Of a stretch of DNA of 46,583 bases, positions 11,417 through 46,452 are shown piece after piece. The first letter of the stretch is position 1; each line of letters opens with the position of its first letter. Location: positions 1 through 46,583 of the forward strand of contig JAIPJT010000017.1 in assembly GCA_021733985.1 (NCBI GenBank). The letters are read 5' to 3'. This stretch comes from Victivallales bacterium. Its GTDB lineage: Bacteria > Verrucomicrobiota > Lentisphaeria > Victivallales > GWF2-38-69. The position numbers and the translations under genes are program-made. The notes beneath the pieces were generated by a model. The model was not told the DNA's origin, did not search any database, and worked only from the letters and a program-made list of their open reading frames with translations.

Positions 11417-12853
11417 CTAATTTTTCTTTTTCTTTTTATTTTTTCCATGAGCTTTCGGTTTTTTTCTTCTTTGCTTTTTTTTCATATTTTTAGGGCCCCT
11501 GGTCAGGCCTCCAGCAGCTCCGCCCATACTGCCGGGCATAGAAGGCATTCCCATTTCAGACATCATGTCATTCATCATAGAAGTTTTTTTCATCATCTTT
11601 TTCATAGTAAAAAATCGTTTGAGCAAAGAGTTTACCTGTTGAATATTAACACCGGCTCCTGCAGCAATTCTTTTCCTTCTTGAAAAGTCAATAATAGCGG
11701 GATTCGCCCTTTCTTTTTTGTTCATTGAACATATGACTGCTTCCATTTGAGAGAACTGTTTATCATCAATGTTGAATTTTGAAAGTTCCTTACCGCCGGG
11801 AAGCATTTTCATAATCTTGCTTAAGCCGCCCATTTTTTTCATTTGATTCATTTGGCTTAAGAAATCGTTAAAGTCGAACTGATTTGATTTTAACCTTTTT
11901 TCGAGCTTTTCAGCCTCTTCCGCTTCAATCTGTTCTGAAGCCTGCTCGACCAGGGATACAACGTCGCCCATTCCAAGTATTCTCGATGCTATTCTGTCGG
12001 GATGGAAATTTTCTATATCGTCAATTTTTTCGCCGACACTAACCATTTTGATAGGGCAGTTTGTGGTTTTTCTTATCGAAAGCGCAGCGCCACCTCTGGC
12101 ATCACCGTCAAGTTTGGTAAGAATTACTCCTGTGAGGCTGAGAGCTTTATGAAAACTGTCGGCGACTGAAACTGCTTCCTGTCCTAAAGCTGAATCCGCA
12201 ACCAGCAAGGTCTCGGCAGGCAGTACCATCTGGGAAATCAAAACAAGTTCCTGCACCATTTCAGTATCTACTTGATGTCTTCCGGCGGTATCAAGTATGA
12301 CTGCATCAAAATTCTCCTGTTTAGCTTTTTCTTTAGCTGACTTTGCGAGAAGGTCAACTCTCGGTTGAAATTTTTCAGAATAAACAGGTACACCAATCTG
12401 CTTTCCGAGACTTTCCAGCTGGTTTACAGCTGCGGGGCGATATATATCTGCAGCAACAAGAAGAACTTTTTTGCCCTGTTTCTTTAACTTTGCAGCAAGT
12501 TTTCCGGCAAAAGTAGTTTTCCCGTTACCGTGAAGGCCTATCAGCATAATTGTAGAAGGTTTTTTTGACAGGTCAAGTTCTTCACTTGTTGTGCCCATTA
12601 GTTCTACAAGTTTATCATTCACTATTTTTATAACCTGTTGGCCCGGGGTTACGCTTCTTAATACCTCCTGTCCTAGTGCATCTTTTTTTACAGAATCCAC
12701 AAATTCTTTTGCAAGCGGGTAACTTACATCGGCATCCAGCAGCGCAAGCCGGATTTCTCTCATGGCTTCAGAAATATTGTTTTCTGTCAAATAAGCCTGG
12801 CCTTTTAGTTTTTTAAATGTATCCTGAAGTTTATTTGAAAGGCTGTCAAACAT
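11417..12853 (-). CDS. ffh: Signal recognition particle protein Ffh
   Basis: The GTPase of the bacterial signal recognition particle; it binds signal sequences and 4.5S/6S RNA and docks with FtsY. The 478 residues contain the N domain (1-90), the G domain with GLHGNGKTT (106-114), DTAGRHQVD, TKLDGDARGG and GVGEK-like elements, and the Met-rich M domain (about 320-435; repeated MM pairs). GLHGNGKTT differs slightly from the usual GLQGxGKTT. The C-terminus ends in a strongly basic Lys-rich tail of about 25 residues, which may aid RNA contact (inference). It is followed 21 bp later by guaB and lies 120 bp after mraY. Confidence 0.97.
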   Translation of the reverse strand: MFDSLSNKLQDTFKKLKGQAYLTENNISEAMREIRLALLDADVSYPLAKEFVDSVKKDALGQEVLRSVTPGQQVIKIVNDKLVELMGTTSEELDLSKKPSTIMLIGLHGNGKTTFAGKLAAKLKKQGKKVLLVAADIYRPAAVNQLESLGKQIGVPVYSEKFQPRVDLLAKSAKEKAKQENFDAVILDTAGRHQVDTEMVQELVLISQMVLPAETLLVADSALGQEAVSVADSFHKALSLTGVILTKLDGDARGGAALSIRKTTNCPIKMVSVGEKIDDIENFHPDRIASRILGMGDVVSLVEQASEQIEAEEAEKLEKRLKSNQFDFNDFLSQMNQMKKMGGLSKIMKMLPGGKELSKFNIDDKQFSQMEAVICSMNKKERANPAIIDFSRRKRIAAGAGVNIQQVNSLLKRFFTMKKMMKKTSMMNDMMSEMGMPSMPGSMGGAAGGLTRGPKNMKKKQRRKKPKAHGKNKKKKKN

Positions 12854-20071: not shown

Positions 20072-20766
20072 TTTATCAAGCCTTTATATTATCCTGAAAT
20101 TATTCAGAGATATCTGTTATTATGATTAGATATTGAACGAAAAGGTTTCATGTTTTGAGGTATATACCAAAGTGTAAGCGGTTTTTTTAATCCGGCGTAG
20201 TTCCGCAATAACGAAAACGAAGCCGGAATGGTTTTTGTGTTTCGTAACTGAACTTGGACACACATTTTATTTTTCTACCTTATCATTCGATACAGGTCAT
20301 ACCGTATGGTGTGATGGTTAAATAAATCAAAACGTTTTGGGTATAAGCAAGAAAATTACTTGTACTGAGTTTAATTTCAATATTTTTTTTAAATTAAACC
20401 GGAAAATAACAGTTCGGTCATTTCAGCTACTACGGGTAATTATTTTATTTTTAAAGAGACCATAACAGAAAAGATATTTTAAGTTATGTCAGAGGCTAAT
20501 GAATAAGTTTTACTTGGAAAGTATACATTTTAAAACAAATATACAATGTACAACTGGTGAGTAAAATTAAATTATTTTTTACCTTAATATTGAAATTAAT
20601 GAAAGTTTTTATGTATAATACAATTAACAATTGTAGAGCGTGAGAGCTTTTTGTGTAATTTATAAATTAGACCTAAAACCGTATGATATTTTATAAAAAA
20701 ATTAATTTTAACCTGAATTCAAAGATTTAGGTTTAAGTTAAAAAAACTTTACCGGAGGCCCAATAA
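20072..20766. other. Long intergenic region between purQ and the chagasin-like gene
   Basis: About 695 bp between divergent genes. It contains a full copy of repeat family 1 (20163-20345). The remaining 420 bp are very AT-rich, with no defensible open frame; they probably hold the promoter of the lipoprotein gene. CCGGAGG just before 20767 provides a strong ribosome site for that gene. Confidence 0.5.
20163..20345 (+). repeat. Dispersed repeat family 1, full copy B
   Basis: Compared with 42373-42535, bases 20191-20293 differ at roughly 10 of 103 positions by eye. Bases 20282-20317 are also exactly present in reverse at 172-207. The left part can form an imperfect hairpin (TCCGGC at 20191-20196 with GCCGGA at 20222-20227). 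TATACC-AAA at 20163 and TTTGGGTATA at 20336-20345 are near-perfect inverted ends, which would suit a small mobile element. Confidence 0.85.
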
Positions 20767-37578: not shown

Positions 37579-38289
37579 ATGTGTTTTAAATTAGTGTCGA
37601 AAGAAAATCAAAATTTTTTTAAATCCGTTAAATACGTTTTGTTTTGTCTGTTTATAACTTCCCTCTTTTCAGGGTGTGCTACGACGGGTAAAACTATTCA
37701 TGCGAACGGTGATAATTATGGGTTGACAGTAAAATCCTCATATAACGGTAACTTGATTACAATTAATAAAAATACTGAATGTTTGAATTATAAAGGGAGA
37801 AATTTTTATTTTGAAAACGAGCTGAATATGTCAAAATTTCAGGATAACCCTGAAAAATACATAAACATACATCCGTTTAACCGTAGTCCTAAAAAAATTA
37901 AATCATTAAAATCTGACTGGGGTTTAAAAACAAACAGTTCTTATAACGGCGACCCTATAGTTGTCAGCGAATATACTCCGACATTATATTTTTTAGATAG
38001 AATTTATTACTTTGCACACAATGAAGAAGTAGAGGCTTTCAAACACGACCCATTAATTTTTATTGCAAAATACCCGGCAAACCGCATCCCTAAAACTATC
38101 TCTCCTCTTAAATCCGATTATGGAGAAAAAACAGTTTGCGGTTCATCGGGAAATCAAATCTTAATAGGTCCGCATACTCCGGCACTTGAGTATTTAGGTA
38201 GAGTATTTTATTTCAGCAGCCTTTATGAAATGCAGGTTTTTCAGCAGGATCCGCAGGCCTATGTAGCTAAGAGTTTTAATAAAAATTAA
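37579..38289 (+). CDS. Lipoprotein with three YHS-like repeats lacking Cys
   Basis: A 236-residue protein with a signal peptide and lipobox SLFSGC (Cys33), so probably a lipoprotein. The mature part consists of three repeats of about 49 residues with a constant period of 67 residues (47-95, 114-162, 181-229). Each reads roughly YGL-K-SS--G--I-------Y--R-YYF------F--DP--Y. That layout is like YHS/TRASH domains (YKGKTYYFC..C...F..DPEKY). However, the metal-binding Cys positions are replaced (ENELNMSKF, HNEEVEAF, SLYEMQVF). Linkers contain the repeated LKSD motif. Function is unknown; metal chelation by Cys is not possible in this form. A good promoter and ribosome site precede it. Confidence 0.75.
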   Translation: MCFKLVSKENQNFFKSVKYVLFCLFITSLFSGCATTGKTIHANGDNYGLTVKSSYNGNLITINKNTECLNYKGRNFYFENELNMSKFQDNPEKYINIHPFNRSPKKIKSLKSDWGLKTNSSYNGDPIVVSEYTPTLYFLDRIYYFAHNEEVEAFKHDPLIFIAKYPANRIPKTISPLKSDYGEKTVCGSSGNQILIGPHTPALEYLGRVFYFSSLYEMQVFQQDPQAYVAKSFNKN

Positions 38290-40739: not shown

Positions 40740-40821
40740 ATTCAGAAATCTGGAATAGATTTTGCCTGTTACAGGTTTATATTAAAAACTTAAATATATA
40801 AAAATTTATTCGGTGAATTTT

Positions 40822-41391
40822 ATGGATATTATGGACATAAAGAAATTGGAAATAAAATACATCGGCGACGAAGTATTAACAAAAAAATCGAAAAACATAA
40901 CTGTCGACGAGAACGTTAAGGAACTGTCAAAAAATATGATAGAACTGATGTACAATAACAATGGCATCGGTCTTGCAGCTCCACAGGTTGGAATAAATAA
41001 CCGGTTGATTGCTATTGATATTAAGGAATATGGGGTAGAGAACCTCAAAACACCGGGGGAGATGCTTTTGTTGCCGCAAATGCCTATTGTCCTCGTCAAT
41101 CCTGAGATTACAGCTTTCAGCAGGGAAACTGCAGAAATGGAGGAGGGGTGTCTGAGTGTCCCGGAGATATTTGCTGTAGTTGAACGGCCTGTGGAAATTA
41201 ATCTCAGGGCTCAGTTCCTTAGCGGAGAAAAGCTTAACATTCAGTGTGGAGGTTTTCTCTCAAGGGTTTTACAGCATGAAATAGACCACTTGAACGGTAT
41301 ATTGTTTGTTGACAGATTGTCAGAGAGAGAAGCTAAAAGAATAAAATCAAAATTAAACAAATTGCAGAAGAAACTGTCAATAAAAAAATAG
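40822..41391 (+). CDS. def: Peptide deformylase
   Basis: Removes the formyl group from the N-terminal Met of new proteins. From ATG 40822 it is 189 residues. GGTGA at 40812-40816 stands 5 nt ahead of this ATG, which makes the overlapping GTG less likely. Motifs: GIGLAAPQVG, EGCLSVP with a metal-ligand Cys, and HEIDHLNG with the metal-ligand His pair and the catalytic Glu. The C-terminal helix is Lys-rich. An insertion around residues 75-95 (VENLKTPGEMLLLPQMP) is longer than in E. coli. It lies 9 bp ahead of the membrane-protein gene. Confidence 0.96.
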   Translation: MDIMDIKKLEIKYIGDEVLTKKSKNITVDENVKELSKNMIELMYNNNGIGLAAPQVGINNRLIAIDIKEYGVENLKTPGEMLLLPQMPIVLVNPEITAFSRETAEMEEGCLSVPEIFAVVERPVEINLRAQFLSGEKLNIQCGGFLSRVLQHEIDHLNGILFVDRLSEREAKRIKSKLNKLQKKLSIKK

Positions 41392-41400
41392 ATATAAAAT

Positions 41401-42351
41401 ATGGGAAAAAATAGTTTTTTTAAAATTCTTGCTTCAGTGTGCACCGGTACGAAGCTTTTTGATGAAATTTCTAAACATTCAGTATTCAGAACCCTGTGGC
41501 ATTTAATATTAATTGCTTTATTATTATCTGCAGTGTTTGTATTAGTAAGAACACCGGAGCTGAGCAGTGATATCTCAGACGTTAATACATTCCTTCAGGA
41601 AGAGTTCGGTTCTGTAGTAGTCAAATCGGACGGTGTATATCCTGAGATTAATCCGGAAAAGCCCAGGAACATAAATTACGACTTTACTGAGATAGGTTAT
41701 TATCCTTCTTTACCTAATAAACAAAATTTGGAATTAAATAATAAACTTAATGACAGGGGCTTTGTCTGGACTCCCAAAGGTATAACCGGTTGGATAAAAA
41801 TGACACCCGAAAAATATGTAGTTTATCAGGGACTTGCTTCAAATAAATCACCACAATGGTTCAATATGACTGATAAAAAAGGCCTGTACCCATATATAAA
41901 AAATAATCGTTTAAAGTCTTTTAACAACCTTTATACATGTTTATGTGCCCCGCTTTCCGGAGATATTCCCCTGTTCATGCTACTGTCGCCAATTAAAAAA
42001 GGGAATAATTATTTTTCTGATTTTTCCAGTAATATATATTGGTATTCTTCAATAATGACAGGTCTAAAGTTTGTGCTTATGATATTTTTTAATGCATTAT
42101 TCTATTCATTGCTTTTTGCTTTATTTTTCAGCATAACGGGCAGGCGGGACCCCCAAAGGGATTTTACTTTTAAAACAGCTTTTAATACTGCTATATATGC
42201 CGGATTCCCGGCAATGATAATCGGGATAGTTTTTACCATTTCAAAAATGCCATGGCTTGATTATCAGACAATTTATCTGCTGACCATGTTTGTTTATCTG
42301 ATTGTTATTATGCAGGGAAAAAGGAAAAAAGAATTTAACGGTAAAAAATAA
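41401..42351 (+). CDS. DUF1189-like membrane protein
   Basis: A 316-residue membrane protein. It has one N-terminal membrane segment (about 34-50), an extracytoplasmic domain (about 52-210), then three or more further segments (about 215-245, 258-280 and 284-304), and a Lys-rich end. The plan FFKIL...SVFRTLWHLI.., a soluble domain with QWFNMTD and LFMLLSP, and then several helices resembles DUF1189 proteins, whose function is unknown. It is 9 bp after def and probably co-transcribed. The next gene is separated by a repeat copy. Confidence 0.65.
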   Translation: MGKNSFFKILASVCTGTKLFDEISKHSVFRTLWHLILIALLLSAVFVLVRTPELSSDISDVNTFLQEEFGSVVVKSDGVYPEINPEKPRNINYDFTEIGYYPSLPNKQNLELNNKLNDRGFVWTPKGITGWIKMTPEKYVVYQGLASNKSPQWFNMTDKKGLYPYIKNNRLKSFNNLYTCLCAPLSGDIPLFMLLSPIKKGNNYFSDFSSNIYWYSSIMTGLKFVLMIFFNALFYSLLFALFFSITGRRDPQRDFTFKTAFNTAIYAGFPAMIIGIVFTISKMPWLDYQTIYLLTMFVYLIVIMQGKRKKEFNGKK

Positions 42352-42372
42352 AAGTAATTTAAGTGCAGCATT

Positions 42373-42535
42373 TATACAAAATGTATGCGGTTTTTTTTAA
42401 ATCCGGCGTAGTTCCGCAATAGCGAAAACGAAGTCGGAATGGTTTTTGTCCTTCGTAAATGAACTTGGACATACACTTTATTTTTCAACCATATCATTCG
42501 ATACGGATAAATAAACCAAATCGTTTAGGGCATAA
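42373..42535 (+). repeat. Dispersed repeat family 1, copy C
   Basis: Aligns with copy B (20163-20345) across its length. It lacks about 22 bases in the right part, where copy B has the block that is identical in copy A. Its TATAC...GGGCATA ends match the inverted ends of copy B loosely. It lies in the 215-bp gap between the DUF1189-like and Cdc123-like genes. Confidence 0.82.
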
Positions 42536-42566: not shown

Positions 42567-43259
42567 ATGAAAAAGAACAAGAATATTTACGGTATCTCTA
42601 ATTGGTATCTGACTTTGGCAGACTATACTTTTCCCACTACTTTTGTTAAACTTAGAGAGTCTGATGTAAAATTGATAGCAGACGGAGTTAATGACGGGGA
42701 TGAAGTTAGTCAGATCAAAAAGAGAATATCAAATGCACAGAAAGCTTTTACCGGCGCTACCTTTATCTCGGCTGATATAGTTGTACCTACAGATACAGAA
42801 AGATTTAGGAGTAAAAAAGGCTCTGTTCATTCCGCGCAGAGCGCATGGGATAATCTTGTGAACAGCAAAAAAGTTAGGAAAGCCGCTGCTGATGGTAGAT
42901 TTGAATATTTATGCATAAGACCGTTCAGAAATATGACTCATGCCAGAGAGTTCAGATTGTTCATATGTGAGGGAGAACTGAAGCTTATGAGTCAATACTG
43001 GTTGTATAGAAAGTTTTACAGGCTTGATGACAGACGTGAAACGTATTGGAATAAAGCAAAAGATCTTGTTGAAGAGATATCGTGGCTTCTTCCTTCAGAA
43101 AATGTTGTTTTGGATATTTATTTTACATCCGGTGAGAAAATTATCTTAATAGATTTTAATAAATGGGGAGAACCTACAAGACCTCTTCTGGCGGAAACCT
43201 GGAACTTAGATTGGGATGAAGAGCATGGTATAAAAATTTTAGAAAAAGATAATGCCTAA
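42567..43259 (+). CDS. Cdc123/D123-like ATP-grasp protein
   Basis: A 230-residue protein that matches eukaryotic Cdc123 along its whole length by pattern. There is an N-terminal SNWY segment, then FVKL; FISADIVVPTDTERF aligns with the FVKLNWSAPRDA region. LCIRPFRNMTHAREFRLF matches the LRKW...EFRCFV block (EFR at 128-130), and GELKLMSQ matches NKLIGISQ. LDIYFTSGEKIILIDFN matches FDIY...WLIDFN (Asp183; IDFN 195-198). PTRPLLAETW aligns with the T.SLLFTW stretch. Cdc123 binds ATP and assembles eIF2 in eukaryotes; bacteria have no eIF2, so its role here is unknown. The stop overlaps the mreC start by 8 nt, which suggests coupled translation with the rod-shape operon. Confidence 0.82.
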   Translation: MKKNKNIYGISNWYLTLADYTFPTTFVKLRESDVKLIADGVNDGDEVSQIKKRISNAQKAFTGATFISADIVVPTDTERFRSKKGSVHSAQSAWDNLVNSKKVRKAAADGRFEYLCIRPFRNMTHAREFRLFICEGELKLMSQYWLYRKFYRLDDRRETYWNKAKDLVEEISWLLPSENVVLDIYFTSGEKIILIDFNKWGEPTRPLLAETWNLDWDEEHGIKILEKDNA

Positions 43260-44097
43260 TAAAAAAATTGTATATATCTTATTAATTTTATCTATTTTAA
43301 TATTACTTTCTATCCAGTATACGAGACGTGCAGTTTACAGAATCGCCGGAGATTTTTTCTACCCTTTTGTAAGTATGGTTTATAATATCGAGAGTTATGT
43401 AGATAAAAAATCCGGGTTAAGAAAGAGTAAGGCTGCACTGATTGATGAAATAGAAAAGCTTAAAAAAGAGAATCTTGTAGTTTCTGCAAAAGCGGAGACT
43501 GTCGATTTGCTGCGGCGTGAAAACTATGAACTGCACCAATTGTTAAAACTGAAAAGCAATCCCTTTTATAAATATATTTTCTCTGAAATTATCTCCAGGG
43601 ATCCGATAATGTGGTTTCAGGAATTTACTATAAACAAAGGTTCAAACAGCGGAATAGAAACCGGAGCATTGGTTATTGCCAGAATCAAAGATACTAAAAA
43701 TAGAAAAAATATAAGGTTCGGTGTTGTCGGGAGAATCAGTGCTGTATCAAATCACACTGCTGTTGTTGATACTATTATAAATAAAGACTGTAGATTGAGT
43801 GTTGTTATCCCGGAAAACGGCGCAACCGGAATACTCAAAGGAGGAGGTAGAAATGGCAGTCAGCTCTGGAGCGAGATAGGTTACCTTCCCCGCGATCTGA
43901 TTTACAGGGTGGATAGTATAGTAGAAACTTCAGGACTAAATAGCTTTACACCGCCTGCACTGAATGTAGGTCGAATCCTGGGAAACGGTGAAGCTGTTGT
44001 AAAAGTTTATAATGACCTTTATAAAAAAGCAAAAATCAAGCCGACTGTAGATTTCAACCATTTAAAATTTGTCCTTGTATTGGTAAAAAATGATTAA
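43252..44097 (+). CDS. mreC: Rod shape-determining protein MreC
   Basis: A 281-residue protein with a short cytoplasmic N-terminus, one membrane segment (about 6-24), a coiled coil (about 60-95), and the beta-rich periplasmic MreC domain. Recognisable elements include WFQEFTINKGSNSGI, a VVGRISAVSNHTAVV block and GILKGGG. MreC links MreB filaments with the elongation transglycosylase complex. It overlaps the Cdc123-like gene by 8 nt upstream and mreD by 8 nt downstream. The mreB gene is not in the window. Confidence 0.93.
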   Translation: MPNKKIVYILLILSILILLSIQYTRRAVYRIAGDFFYPFVSMVYNIESYVDKKSGLRKSKAALIDEIEKLKKENLVVSAKAETVDLLRRENYELHQLLKLKSNPFYKYIFSEIISRDPIMWFQEFTINKGSNSGIETGALVIARIKDTKNRKNIRFGVVGRISAVSNHTAVVDTIINKDCRLSVVIPENGATGILKGGGRNGSQLWSEIGYLPRDLIYRVDSIVETSGLNSFTPPALNVGRILGNGEAVVKVYNDLYKKAKIKPTVDFNHLKFVLVLVKND

Positions 44098-44611
44098 AAC
44101 AGCTTTTATTTTTCTTATAATTTTTTTTTCGATTTTCCTTGAACTCAGTTTTGGGGGGATTGGGATTGTTTTTCCCGCAACTGCATGTGCGGTTTTTTAC
44201 ATTTCAGTAAACTACGGCTGGAGGTTGACTGTTATTATTGCCCTTCTTTCAGGATTGGTAATTGATGTACTTTTTGGAAGACAAATATTTTATACACCTT
44301 ATACGTTATTAGTCATAACAGTATTTGGTAGATACTGGCTTCATAAAGGAGTACTCAAAGCGTTAAAAATACAGATATTTCCAGGACTGATTAATGGTGT
44401 GGTATATTCTGCACCTTTGTTTCTATTTCTATACGGAAGATATCAAAGCGGCTTTTTACTTTTCCTTTTTAATTTTTCCAATTTTTTACTGACTGTTGCA
44501 TTAGGCGGTATGCTTATGCCGTTTACAGTTTTGTTACTTGATACCTTGAGTGAAAAATTTGAGTTACCGATTTATACTAAAGCTAAAATAAATTTTTATC
44601 ATAGTAATTAG
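44090..44611 (+). CDS. mreD: Rod shape-determining protein MreD
   Basis: A 173-residue polytopic membrane protein with about five hydrophobic helices, the size and form of MreD. The pattern ALLSGLVIDVLFG (helix with an Asp) is typical of the family. It overlaps mreC by 8 nt (ATG at 44090) and is 8 bp before the PBP2 gene. MreD is a membrane partner of MreC in the elongasome. Sequence similarity alone is weak; position carries most of the weight. Confidence 0.88.
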   Translation: MIKTAFIFLIIFFSIFLELSFGGIGIVFPATACAVFYISVNYGWRLTVIIALLSGLVIDVLFGRQIFYTPYTLLVITVFGRYWLHKGVLKALKIQIFPGLINGVVYSAPLFLFLYGRYQSGFLLFLFNFSNFLLTVALGGMLMPFTVLLLDTLSEKFELPIYTKAKINFYHSN

Positions 44612-44619
44612 GTTAATAA

Positions 44620-46452
44620 TTGACTCATAAAACCCAAAATAGAACAAGAATCTTTATAATTGCAGGTATAATTATAATTTTCTATATTGTACTGATTTTA
44701 AGACTTGCAGATATTCAGCTTGAAAAAAGCGGTGAATATAAAAAGTCAATAGCTACTCAATGTATTAGAAAAGTAAGAATTCCCGCGATCAGAGGACGTA
44801 TTTATTCATCCGATGATAAAATAATTGCCGATAACAAAGTAAGTTATAATGCTGTTTTTCATATGGCGGAAATGCGTAAGGCCGGGAGTAGAACCAAAAG
44901 TGTAAATTATATTTATTCATGTGCTCAGCGCTTAGGAAAAGCTTTGCATAGAAAACTTGAAATTACAAAAAAAGATATAATTAAACAGATAAATATGCGG
45001 CCGGCTATGCCTATTACCGTTTTCAAAAATCTTACAAGAAAAGAATTAGCCGTATGTTTTGAGTTCAGCCCGCCAATACCCGGAATGGAAGTGGCTGCTA
45101 TTCCTAAAAGATATTATCCTTACAAAGAAATCGGATGCCACTTTATAGGTTATACCGGAAAAGATGACCCTGGCGAAGCACCCGACAGGAAAAAATATTC
45201 ATATTATATTCCTGACATAAAAGGACGAAGCGGAATAGAGAAACTTGCTGACAAAAAAATTGAACTCGGGGCTGGCTATAAAGGTCTAAGAGGGAAAGCA
45301 GGTAGTAAACTGCTCAGAGTTAATGTAAAAGGTTATGTCCATGATGATTTAGGTGTAACTACTTCTCCAAGAAACGGTAATAATATCGTTCTGACTATTG
45401 ACTGGGAGGCCCAGAAGGCTGCAGCTAAAGTTTTGCAAGGAAGAACAGGTTCACTTATACTTATGAATGCCGATACAGGGGCTGTCCTTGCAATGGCTTC
45501 CTCACCCGGTTTTGACCCGAATGAATTTACAGACGGTATCAGCTCTGAAAAATGGAAAAAATTACTGCACAATCCTAAAAGACCCCTTTTTAACAGAACG
45601 CTTATGGGAGAATATATGCCCGGTTCTATAATTAAACCGATTGTGGCCCTCGCAGCACTGAAAGCAGGGATTAATCCTGATGAAACTGTTTACTGTGACG
45701 GTTTCGCTAAAATTGGGAACAGCGGAATTCATTGCTGGATATGGAGATATGGAGGGCACGGCTACGAAAATATGGTAGATGCTTTAAGGGATTCATGTAA
45801 TGTATATTTTGTAAAAACAGGCTTAAAAGTTGGAATGAAAAAACTCCAGGCTATGTTTAAAGCTGCTGGTATTGGTAGAAAAACAGGCATTGGTCTGCCG
45901 GAGAGAAAGGGCATTTTGCCTTCCGTAAAGAAAAAAAAGGAAGTTTTCGGTACCAAATGGAGAAAATTTGATACAGGCCTGATATCTATAGGGCAGGGGC
46001 TGCTGGCTATTACTCCCATTCAGGCAGTAGTTTATACTGCTGCTATCGCAAACGGAGGAATAATACGGAAACCGTATATTATTAAATCAGTTAAAAATTA
46101 TAACGATAAACTTATATATCTGGCCTTTCCGCACAAAGCTGATAAACTTCCTGTAACTAAAAAAGAGTTAGACGTGGTAAGGGAAGGTATGTATGATTCT
46201 GTTAATGATGCAAACGGTTCAAGCAAAAGGGCAAGAAATAACTATATCACACTGTATGGTAAAACCGGAACCGCACAGGTGGGAGCTCCACCAAACAGAT
46301 ATAAGAATACATGGTTTATCGCTTTCGGGACTTATAAAGGGACTACTTATTCTATCGTTGTATCAATAGAACATGGAGTTGCAGGCGGACTTACAAATGC
46401 TCCCATAGCAAGAAAATTTTTCGAACTATGGCTGGGCGCCAAAGAGAAATAA
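44620..46452 (+). CDS. mrdA: Penicillin-binding protein 2 (elongasome transpeptidase)
   Basis: A 610-residue class B penicillin-binding protein. It has an N-terminal membrane anchor (about 11-28), a dimerisation domain starting near IRGRIYSSDDKIIADN, and the transpeptidase domain. Active-site motifs: SIIK (Ser336, Lys339), SCN (392-394) and KTGTAQ (548-553). HCWIWRYGGHGYENM before SCN is characteristic of PBP2 rather than FtsI. It cross-links side-wall peptidoglycan with RodA and MreC. The start is TTG at 44620 with a poor ribosome site, 8 bp after mreD, so coupling is likely. RodA is not in the window; the next gene is convergent. Confidence 0.95.
   Translation: MTHKTQNRTRIFIIAGIIIIFYIVLILRLADIQLEKSGEYKKSIATQCIRKVRIPAIRGRIYSSDDKIIADNKVSYNAVFHMAEMRKAGSRTKSVNYIYSCAQRLGKALHRKLEITKKDIIKQINMRPAMPITVFKNLTRKELAVCFEFSPPIPGMEVAAIPKRYYPYKEIGCHFIGYTGKDDPGEAPDRKKYSYYIPDIKGRSGIEKLADKKIELGAGYKGLRGKAGSKLLRVNVKGYVHDDLGVTTSPRNGNNIVLTIDWEAQKAAAKVLQGRTGSLILMNADTGAVLAMASSPGFDPNEFTDGISSEKWKKLLHNPKRPLFNRTLMGEYMPGSIIKPIVALAALKAGINPDETVYCDGFAKIGNSGIHCWIWRYGGHGYENMVDALRDSCNVYFVKTGLKVGMKKLQAMFKAAGIGRKTGIGLPERKGILPSVKKKKEVFGTKWRKFDTGLISIGQGLLAITPIQAVVYTAAIANGGIIRKPYIIKSVKNYNDKLIYLAFPHKADKLPVTKKELDVVREGMYDSVNDANGSSKRARNNYITLYGKTGTAQVGAPPNRYKNTWFIAFGTYKGTTYSIVVSIEHGVAGGLTNAPIARKFFELWLGAKEK

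Follow-up and report, generated by a model that had tools for sequence, protein, structure and literature searches.

A Cdc123-like ATP-grasp-fold protein of the Lentisphaeria and its local linkage to mreC in one family of Victivallales

INTRODUCTION

To our knowledge, eIF2 is not a bacterial protein, and CDC123 is an essential gene in yeast. Eukaryotic Cdc123 binds ATP and serves as a chaperone in the assembly of eIF2 (PMC8844851, PMC12860950), and in the structure of the human protein R111 contacts the beta and gamma phosphates (PMC12860950). Burroughs et al. (2015) proposed a role for CDC123 as a protein-tagging ligase of the R2K clade, which is named for and defined by two basic residues in the K104/R111 region (PMC4431377). 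They described two bacterial types, T6SS linked and effector, as sporadic and horizontally moved, and their bacterial group (R2K.1), which is of the same Pfam family as the protein described here, includes Lentisphaera araneosa (PMC4431377).

Here we analyze a Cdc123-like gene, D123, in a 46,583-nucleotide contig of a Victivallales bacterium (GCA_021733985.1, contig JAIPJT010000017.1; the whole stretch is called the window). An initial annotation had proposed that D123 encodes an enzyme tied to the rod-shape operon, and had stated that bacterial relatives of Cdc123 were already known; indeed, Lentisphaerae are among the carriers listed in 2015 (PMC4431377).

RESULTS

D123 (positions 42567..43259, + strand) begins with an ATG preceded by a good ribosome-binding stretch and encodes 230 amino acids. 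The protein matched PF07065 (Pfam D123) with an E value of 6.2e-14 and a score of 52.3 bits, the curated cut-off being 24 bits. On its own, it found human CDC123 in the PDB by phmmer at 1.2e-5, with only residues 109-213 aligned, whereas a profile of its relatives reached the human protein at 6.8e-19 and a profile of the class did so at 1.9e-21, positions 8-217 aligning with human 29-286 (chain numbering). An AlphaFold2 model had a mean pLDDT of 94.4, and the best 10 PDB matches to it in Foldseek were all Cdc123 of human or fission yeast, with TM scores of 0.77-0.84 by query length. The full-length match to Cdc123 that had been claimed at the outset therefore holds with the relatives' profiles and the model. 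The profile similarity that had been asked for was found (6e-14 to 2e-21), the model gave a confident Cdc123 fold, and an ATP-grasp identity of the Cdc123 type is supported. Judged by these profiles and by the predicted structure, the open reading frame is a real CDC123 homologue, well above chance.

D123 was present in 49 of the 60 relatives of the window genome that we compared and in 103 of 144 genomes of the class, Lentisphaeria, usually as a single copy. Among 388 genomes of the phylum, the 98 positive ones all belonged to the same family, order or class, and no match lay outside the class. A further 69 loci were found in GTDB genomes with an alignment of a conserved subset of the family, a scan with the window protein alone having matched nothing. 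Almost all of them were named as Lentisphaeria, Lentisphaerae, Victivallales or Victivallis, a few being called only "uncultured bacterium", and they included those of Victivallis vadensis DSM 14823 and of strain zth2, whose genome is complete. In a tree of 54 D123 sequences, the order was set apart from the rest of the class with support of 100/100, and the 15 family labels required 16 changes, the minimum being 14, so inheritance has been essentially vertical. One contig labelled Candidatus Paceibacterota (L157:966-1664) carries a D123 of the Lentisphaeria type that falls inside the Lentisphaeria tree and is followed by AMP-binding ligase and oxaloacetate-decarboxylase-like genes; this contig may be mis-binned or mislabelled.

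A tail of the form G-D/N-V/I-x-V-S-F (GDVxVSF; for example, at L026:1861-1881) ends 51 of the 54 proteins, with a few variants such as GKLQVKF. All three D123 proteins of the window's family (f1) stop before it, a loss limited to f1 among the 54, and no remnant could be read downstream of the f1 stop codons in any of three frames. In the full-length model of the V. vadensis protein, the tail is an extended coil of fair confidence.

Upstream of D123 in the window lie def, encoding peptide deformylase (40813..41391, + strand; PF01327, 1.6e-49; TIGR00079 above cut-off), and a gene for a Yip1/DUF1189-like membrane protein, here called yip1 (41401..42351, + strand; PF06691, 7e-6, and PF04893, 2e-4, both below the curated cut-offs). 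The position of yip1 between def and D123 is fixed in relatives; it lies directly upstream of D123 in 37 of the 38 Victivallales genomes with mapped neighborhoods and at 65 of the 69 GTDB loci. Despite this fixed position, the Yip1-like proteins are only about 20-30% identical between genomes. Outside f1, the context is (tolC)-(gltX)-def-yip1-D123, with every gene on the same strand; tolC and gltX were named by sequence reading. As a background control, the 18-kb surroundings in 20 genomes contained almost nothing recurrent besides these five genes. We rejected the Yip1-like protein as an obligatory partner of D123: genus g19 has the def-yip1 pair without D123, and in family f11, where D123 is present, yip1 was not found, so neither is obligatory for the other. 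Elsewhere in the window, positions 37579-38289 encode a YHS domain protein (7.6e-10) with apparently three similar YHS-like repeats.

Family f11 of the same class has a different arrangement, map-ffh-D123, in all six of its genomes (for example, L203:4464-9768; also L211, L214, L216 and L200), with map and ffh confirmed as the TIGR00500 and TIGR00959 equivalogs. Among the 42 class genomes checked, map and ffh adjoin each other in these six and not in the remaining 36, so the arrangement was assembled separately. The window also contains an ffh gene (11585-12850, - strand), but about 30 kb away from D123; the two are not adjacent in this order. The recurrence of nascent-chain handling among the neighbors (deformylase, methionine aminopeptidase, SRP54) is suggestive. 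By a rough, post hoc estimate that counts about 12 such genes among about 3,000, with two neighbors on each side and seven independent contexts, the two independent placements would arise by chance in about half a percent of cases. The neighborhood argument is likewise post hoc, and the neighbors of D123 in some families (f9, f12-f14, f17 and f20) are unrelated; such unrelated neighbors include LpxK, DAHP synthase (named by sequence reading only) and UDP-glucose dehydrogenase. On this evidence our leading, still tentative, reading is that D123 is the orthologue of CDC123 in Lentisphaeria, a housekeeping gene passed on vertically and usually present once per genome, whose product would assist the assembly of a co-translational protein in an ATP-dependent manner.

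To compare the active sites, residue conservation was counted by alignment column over the 54 homologues, and human numbering was read off the printed PDB alignment after allowing an offset of 20 for the tag; D233 and D246xN248 then fall where PMC4431377 has them. The EFR, SQ and DFN elements pointed out in the initial annotation are present. The ExR motif, in the first strand of the PIPK-like domain (E128-F-R130, 42948..42956, + strand; human E177/R179), has its E and R in 54 of 54 sequences; Q143 (42993..42995, + strand; human Q192) and the acidic metal/phosphate residue D183 (43113..43115, + strand; human D233) are equally invariant, as is the equivalent of human Y235. In the terminal DxN metal motif (D196-F-N198, 43152..43160, + strand; human D246xN248), D is kept in 53 and N in 52 of the 54. 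An acidic residue in the PIPK-like strand together with an ExN/DxN motif is what the ATP-grasp superfamily displays, and D123 keeps the metal/phosphate half of the active site. In the ATP pocket, the human APRD motif (A109-D112) becomes APTD-like in the homologues, with an invariant D, and VPTD in the window protein (residues 73-76, 42783..42794, + strand), which has Thr at the R111 position and Ser (residue 68) at that of K104. The K104 equivalent, the conserved lysine of RAGNYA strand 2, is Lys or Arg in none of the 54 as aligned, Ser, Gly, Phe and others standing there instead; the second R2K position, in the following loop and taken as human R111, is Thr in 47 and Lys in 1. By profile and fold the class group thus belongs to the CDC123 family, yet as aligned it lacks the R2K lysine. 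Most Victivallales proteins have K83 or a nearby Lys/Arg, which may substitute at the second position, and it is possible that Lys83 or Arg121 compensates for the missing basic residues. Because the equivalents of K104 and R111 are missing, nucleotide use may differ or be lost.

These residues bear directly on the suggestion, made in the initial annotation, that the protein ligates or modifies a partner, and on the related reading that D123 is an active R2K-type ligase that tags a protein with a peptide or amino acid. The ATP-grasp fold, the weaker matches to structures of D-Ala-D-Ala ligase, RimK-like and LysX/ArgX enzymes, the retained ExR, D and DxN motifs, and the conserved basic R118 and R121 (with K83 in Victivallales), which could stand in, all favor a ligase. 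However, the two positions that define R2K (PMC4431377) are the ones replaced in the alignment, human R111 is in contact with the beta and gamma phosphates (PMC12860950), and we found neither a linked acceptor peptide nor a second R2K-type ligase. The suggestion is weakened accordingly, and we regard a tagging ligase as unlikely.

Less probable still is that D123 works with an AMP-binding (acyl or aminoacyl) ligase encoded behind it, for example, by transferring or controlling an activated acid. Such a gene lies 0-10 nt behind D123 in five of the six f11 genomes, which also have pdxJ after D123, and in one f13 genome; the D123-ligase order recurs in f12 and in L157. It is, however, absent from the mapped clusters of Victivallales, where D123 is most widespread, and the kinship of the enzyme to fatty-acid CoA ligases is only loose, with every NCBIfam match shown below cut-off.

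In the window, D123 is followed by mreC (43252..44097, + strand; PF04085, 3.2e-30), a gene for a 173-aa mreD-like protein (44090..44611, + strand) and mrdA, encoding PBP2 (44620..46452, + strand; PF00905, 3e-65; PF03717, 1.4e-26). The mreD-like protein had no Pfam match and only a weak profile match to the mreD of relatives, but it lies between mreC and mrdA; the mrdA orthologue of one relative, G002, is recognized by TIGR03423 (pbp2_mrdA). Since the mreC ATG is at 43252, the mreC start overlaps the D123 stop by exactly 8 nt (43252..43259, + strand; ATGCCTAA). The overlap that had been described is therefore real, and it is unique to the window genome: it is absent in G001 and G002, the two closest relatives, in which D123 and mreC are separated by gaps of 33 and 25 nt instead. 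Translational coupling of D123 and mreC, proposed from the overlap, is a matter of sequence inference.

The window genome also differs in the gap between yip1 and D123, which measures 215 bp there, 18 bp in G001 and 22 bp in G002. This gap holds a copy of an interspersed repeat of about 165 bp (42372-42535), of which eight copies were aligned, that begins near TATACAnAAGTGTATGCG-T8 and ends near GGTATA. About 40 full or partial copies, 78-95% identical, occur in the window genome, a second one in the window itself being at 20163-20293; the repeat had no Rfam match and looks like a small mobile element or a REP-like family. As it parts yip1 from D123 in the window genome only, D123 may be expressed there with the mre genes. 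No known RNA was found in the region, and a promoter scan of it gave sites no more numerous than in shuffled sequences.

The survey of neighborhoods that had been called for did find D123 next to mreC outside the window genome, in G001 and G002, but solely within f1: these three f1 genomes, with the order def-yip1-D123-mreC-mreD-mrdA, were the only ones with the adjacency among the 60 relatives compared. In the other 46 relatives with D123, mreC lay on a different contig or at a great distance, or no mreC was found, and the linkage was absent at all 69 GTDB loci. Comparison of the D123 and MreC positions led us to reject a general link, and linkage with mreC-mreD-mrdA was not seen beyond one family. 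The claimed tie to the rod-shape operon thus stands for three f1 genomes and falls elsewhere. That D123 is a cell-shape factor acting with MreC, MreD and PBP2 would fit the adjacency in all three f1 genomes, and the long f1 stem branch of the D123 tree (0.8 changes per column, the median end branch being 0.34) together with the loss of the tail could mean a new role. Against this, the 46 D123 genomes of the order and the 69 loci lack the adjacency, and mreC-mreD-mrdA occur together without D123 in all four relatives inspected, making this a highly improbable explanation. The f1 protein has diverged faster and is without the C-terminal tail. The f1 gene would rather have kept its place behind def-yip1, mreC-mreD-mrdA coming to lie behind it, and the mre link would be a local, secondary rearrangement, possibly with some change of role.

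Membership in a conflict or effector system, as for the T6SS-linked and Legionella-type proteins, the two kinds of bacterial CDC123 reported in 2015 (PMC4431377), is largely refuted and hardly credible, given that nearly all positive genomes have a single D123, that inheritance is vertical and synteny fixed, that the proteins are about 230-250 aa long with no long extension, and that the identified neighbors are housekeeping genes, none of them T6SS; a defense or phage origin was likewise rejected, as D123 had no PADLOC or PHROG match.

DISCUSSION

As an assembly factor, D123 would bind ATP-Mg in its cleft and serve in assembly or quality control, in the way that eukaryotic Cdc123 does for eIF2-gamma, whose domain III it binds. 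Because neither R2K basic residue is found at its aligned position, we slightly favor a chaperone-like, ATP-gated clamp over a peptide ligase. Candidate clients would be components of protein synthesis or early nascent-chain handling, such as an EF-Tu-family GTPase, SRP or an N-terminal processing enzyme. SelB, of the EF-Tu family, was rejected as a substrate on co-occurrence; it was above cut-off in only 3 of 43 genomes and does not track D123. A more specific version, which we consider possible but rather doubtful, is that bacterial CDC123 is a housekeeping factor at the handling of the initiator methionine and nascent chain (deformylase, methionine aminopeptidase, SRP), with a pocket that lacks the R2K lysines and a link to translation that predates or parallels the eIF2 role.

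Compared with eukaryotic CDC123 (PDB 8phd, 4zgn and 4zgp), the proteins of the class share the full-length fold, the ExR, Q, D and DxN positions, the occurrence as a single copy and a neighborhood in which genes of translation take part. They differ in being only about 19% identical, in the replacement of K104 and R111, and in having the GDVxVSF C terminus and no acidic or disordered inserts. Unlike the bacterial types of Burroughs et al., class D123 is inherited vertically, spread across the class and in synteny with def or with map-ffh, and in the alignment it has neither of the R2K basic residues. The window protein is not a member of R2K_2 or R2K_3, its C-terminal half giving a weak R2K_2 match (2.9e-4) that is below cut-off. 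The likeness to RimK, Ddl and LysX/ArgX ligases is one of fold at the superfamily level (Foldseek E values of about 1e-4 to 1e-5); TM scores by query are only about 0.35-0.53, and D123 has no RAGNYA lysine.

In the open-access literature, we found no other paper that joins CDC123 and Lentisphaerae and no link between CDC123/D123 and peptide deformylase; the housekeeping pattern, gene contexts, missing lysines and tail of Lentisphaeria D123 appear to be undescribed so far. A bacterial CDC123 orthologue would offer a simple, eIF2-free system in which to look for the kind of partner that CDC123 had ancestrally and to ask whether ATP is still used when the R2K lysines are missing. For such work, Victivallis vadensis is available as a cultured isolate of the class, and the genome of strain zth2 has been sequenced completely.
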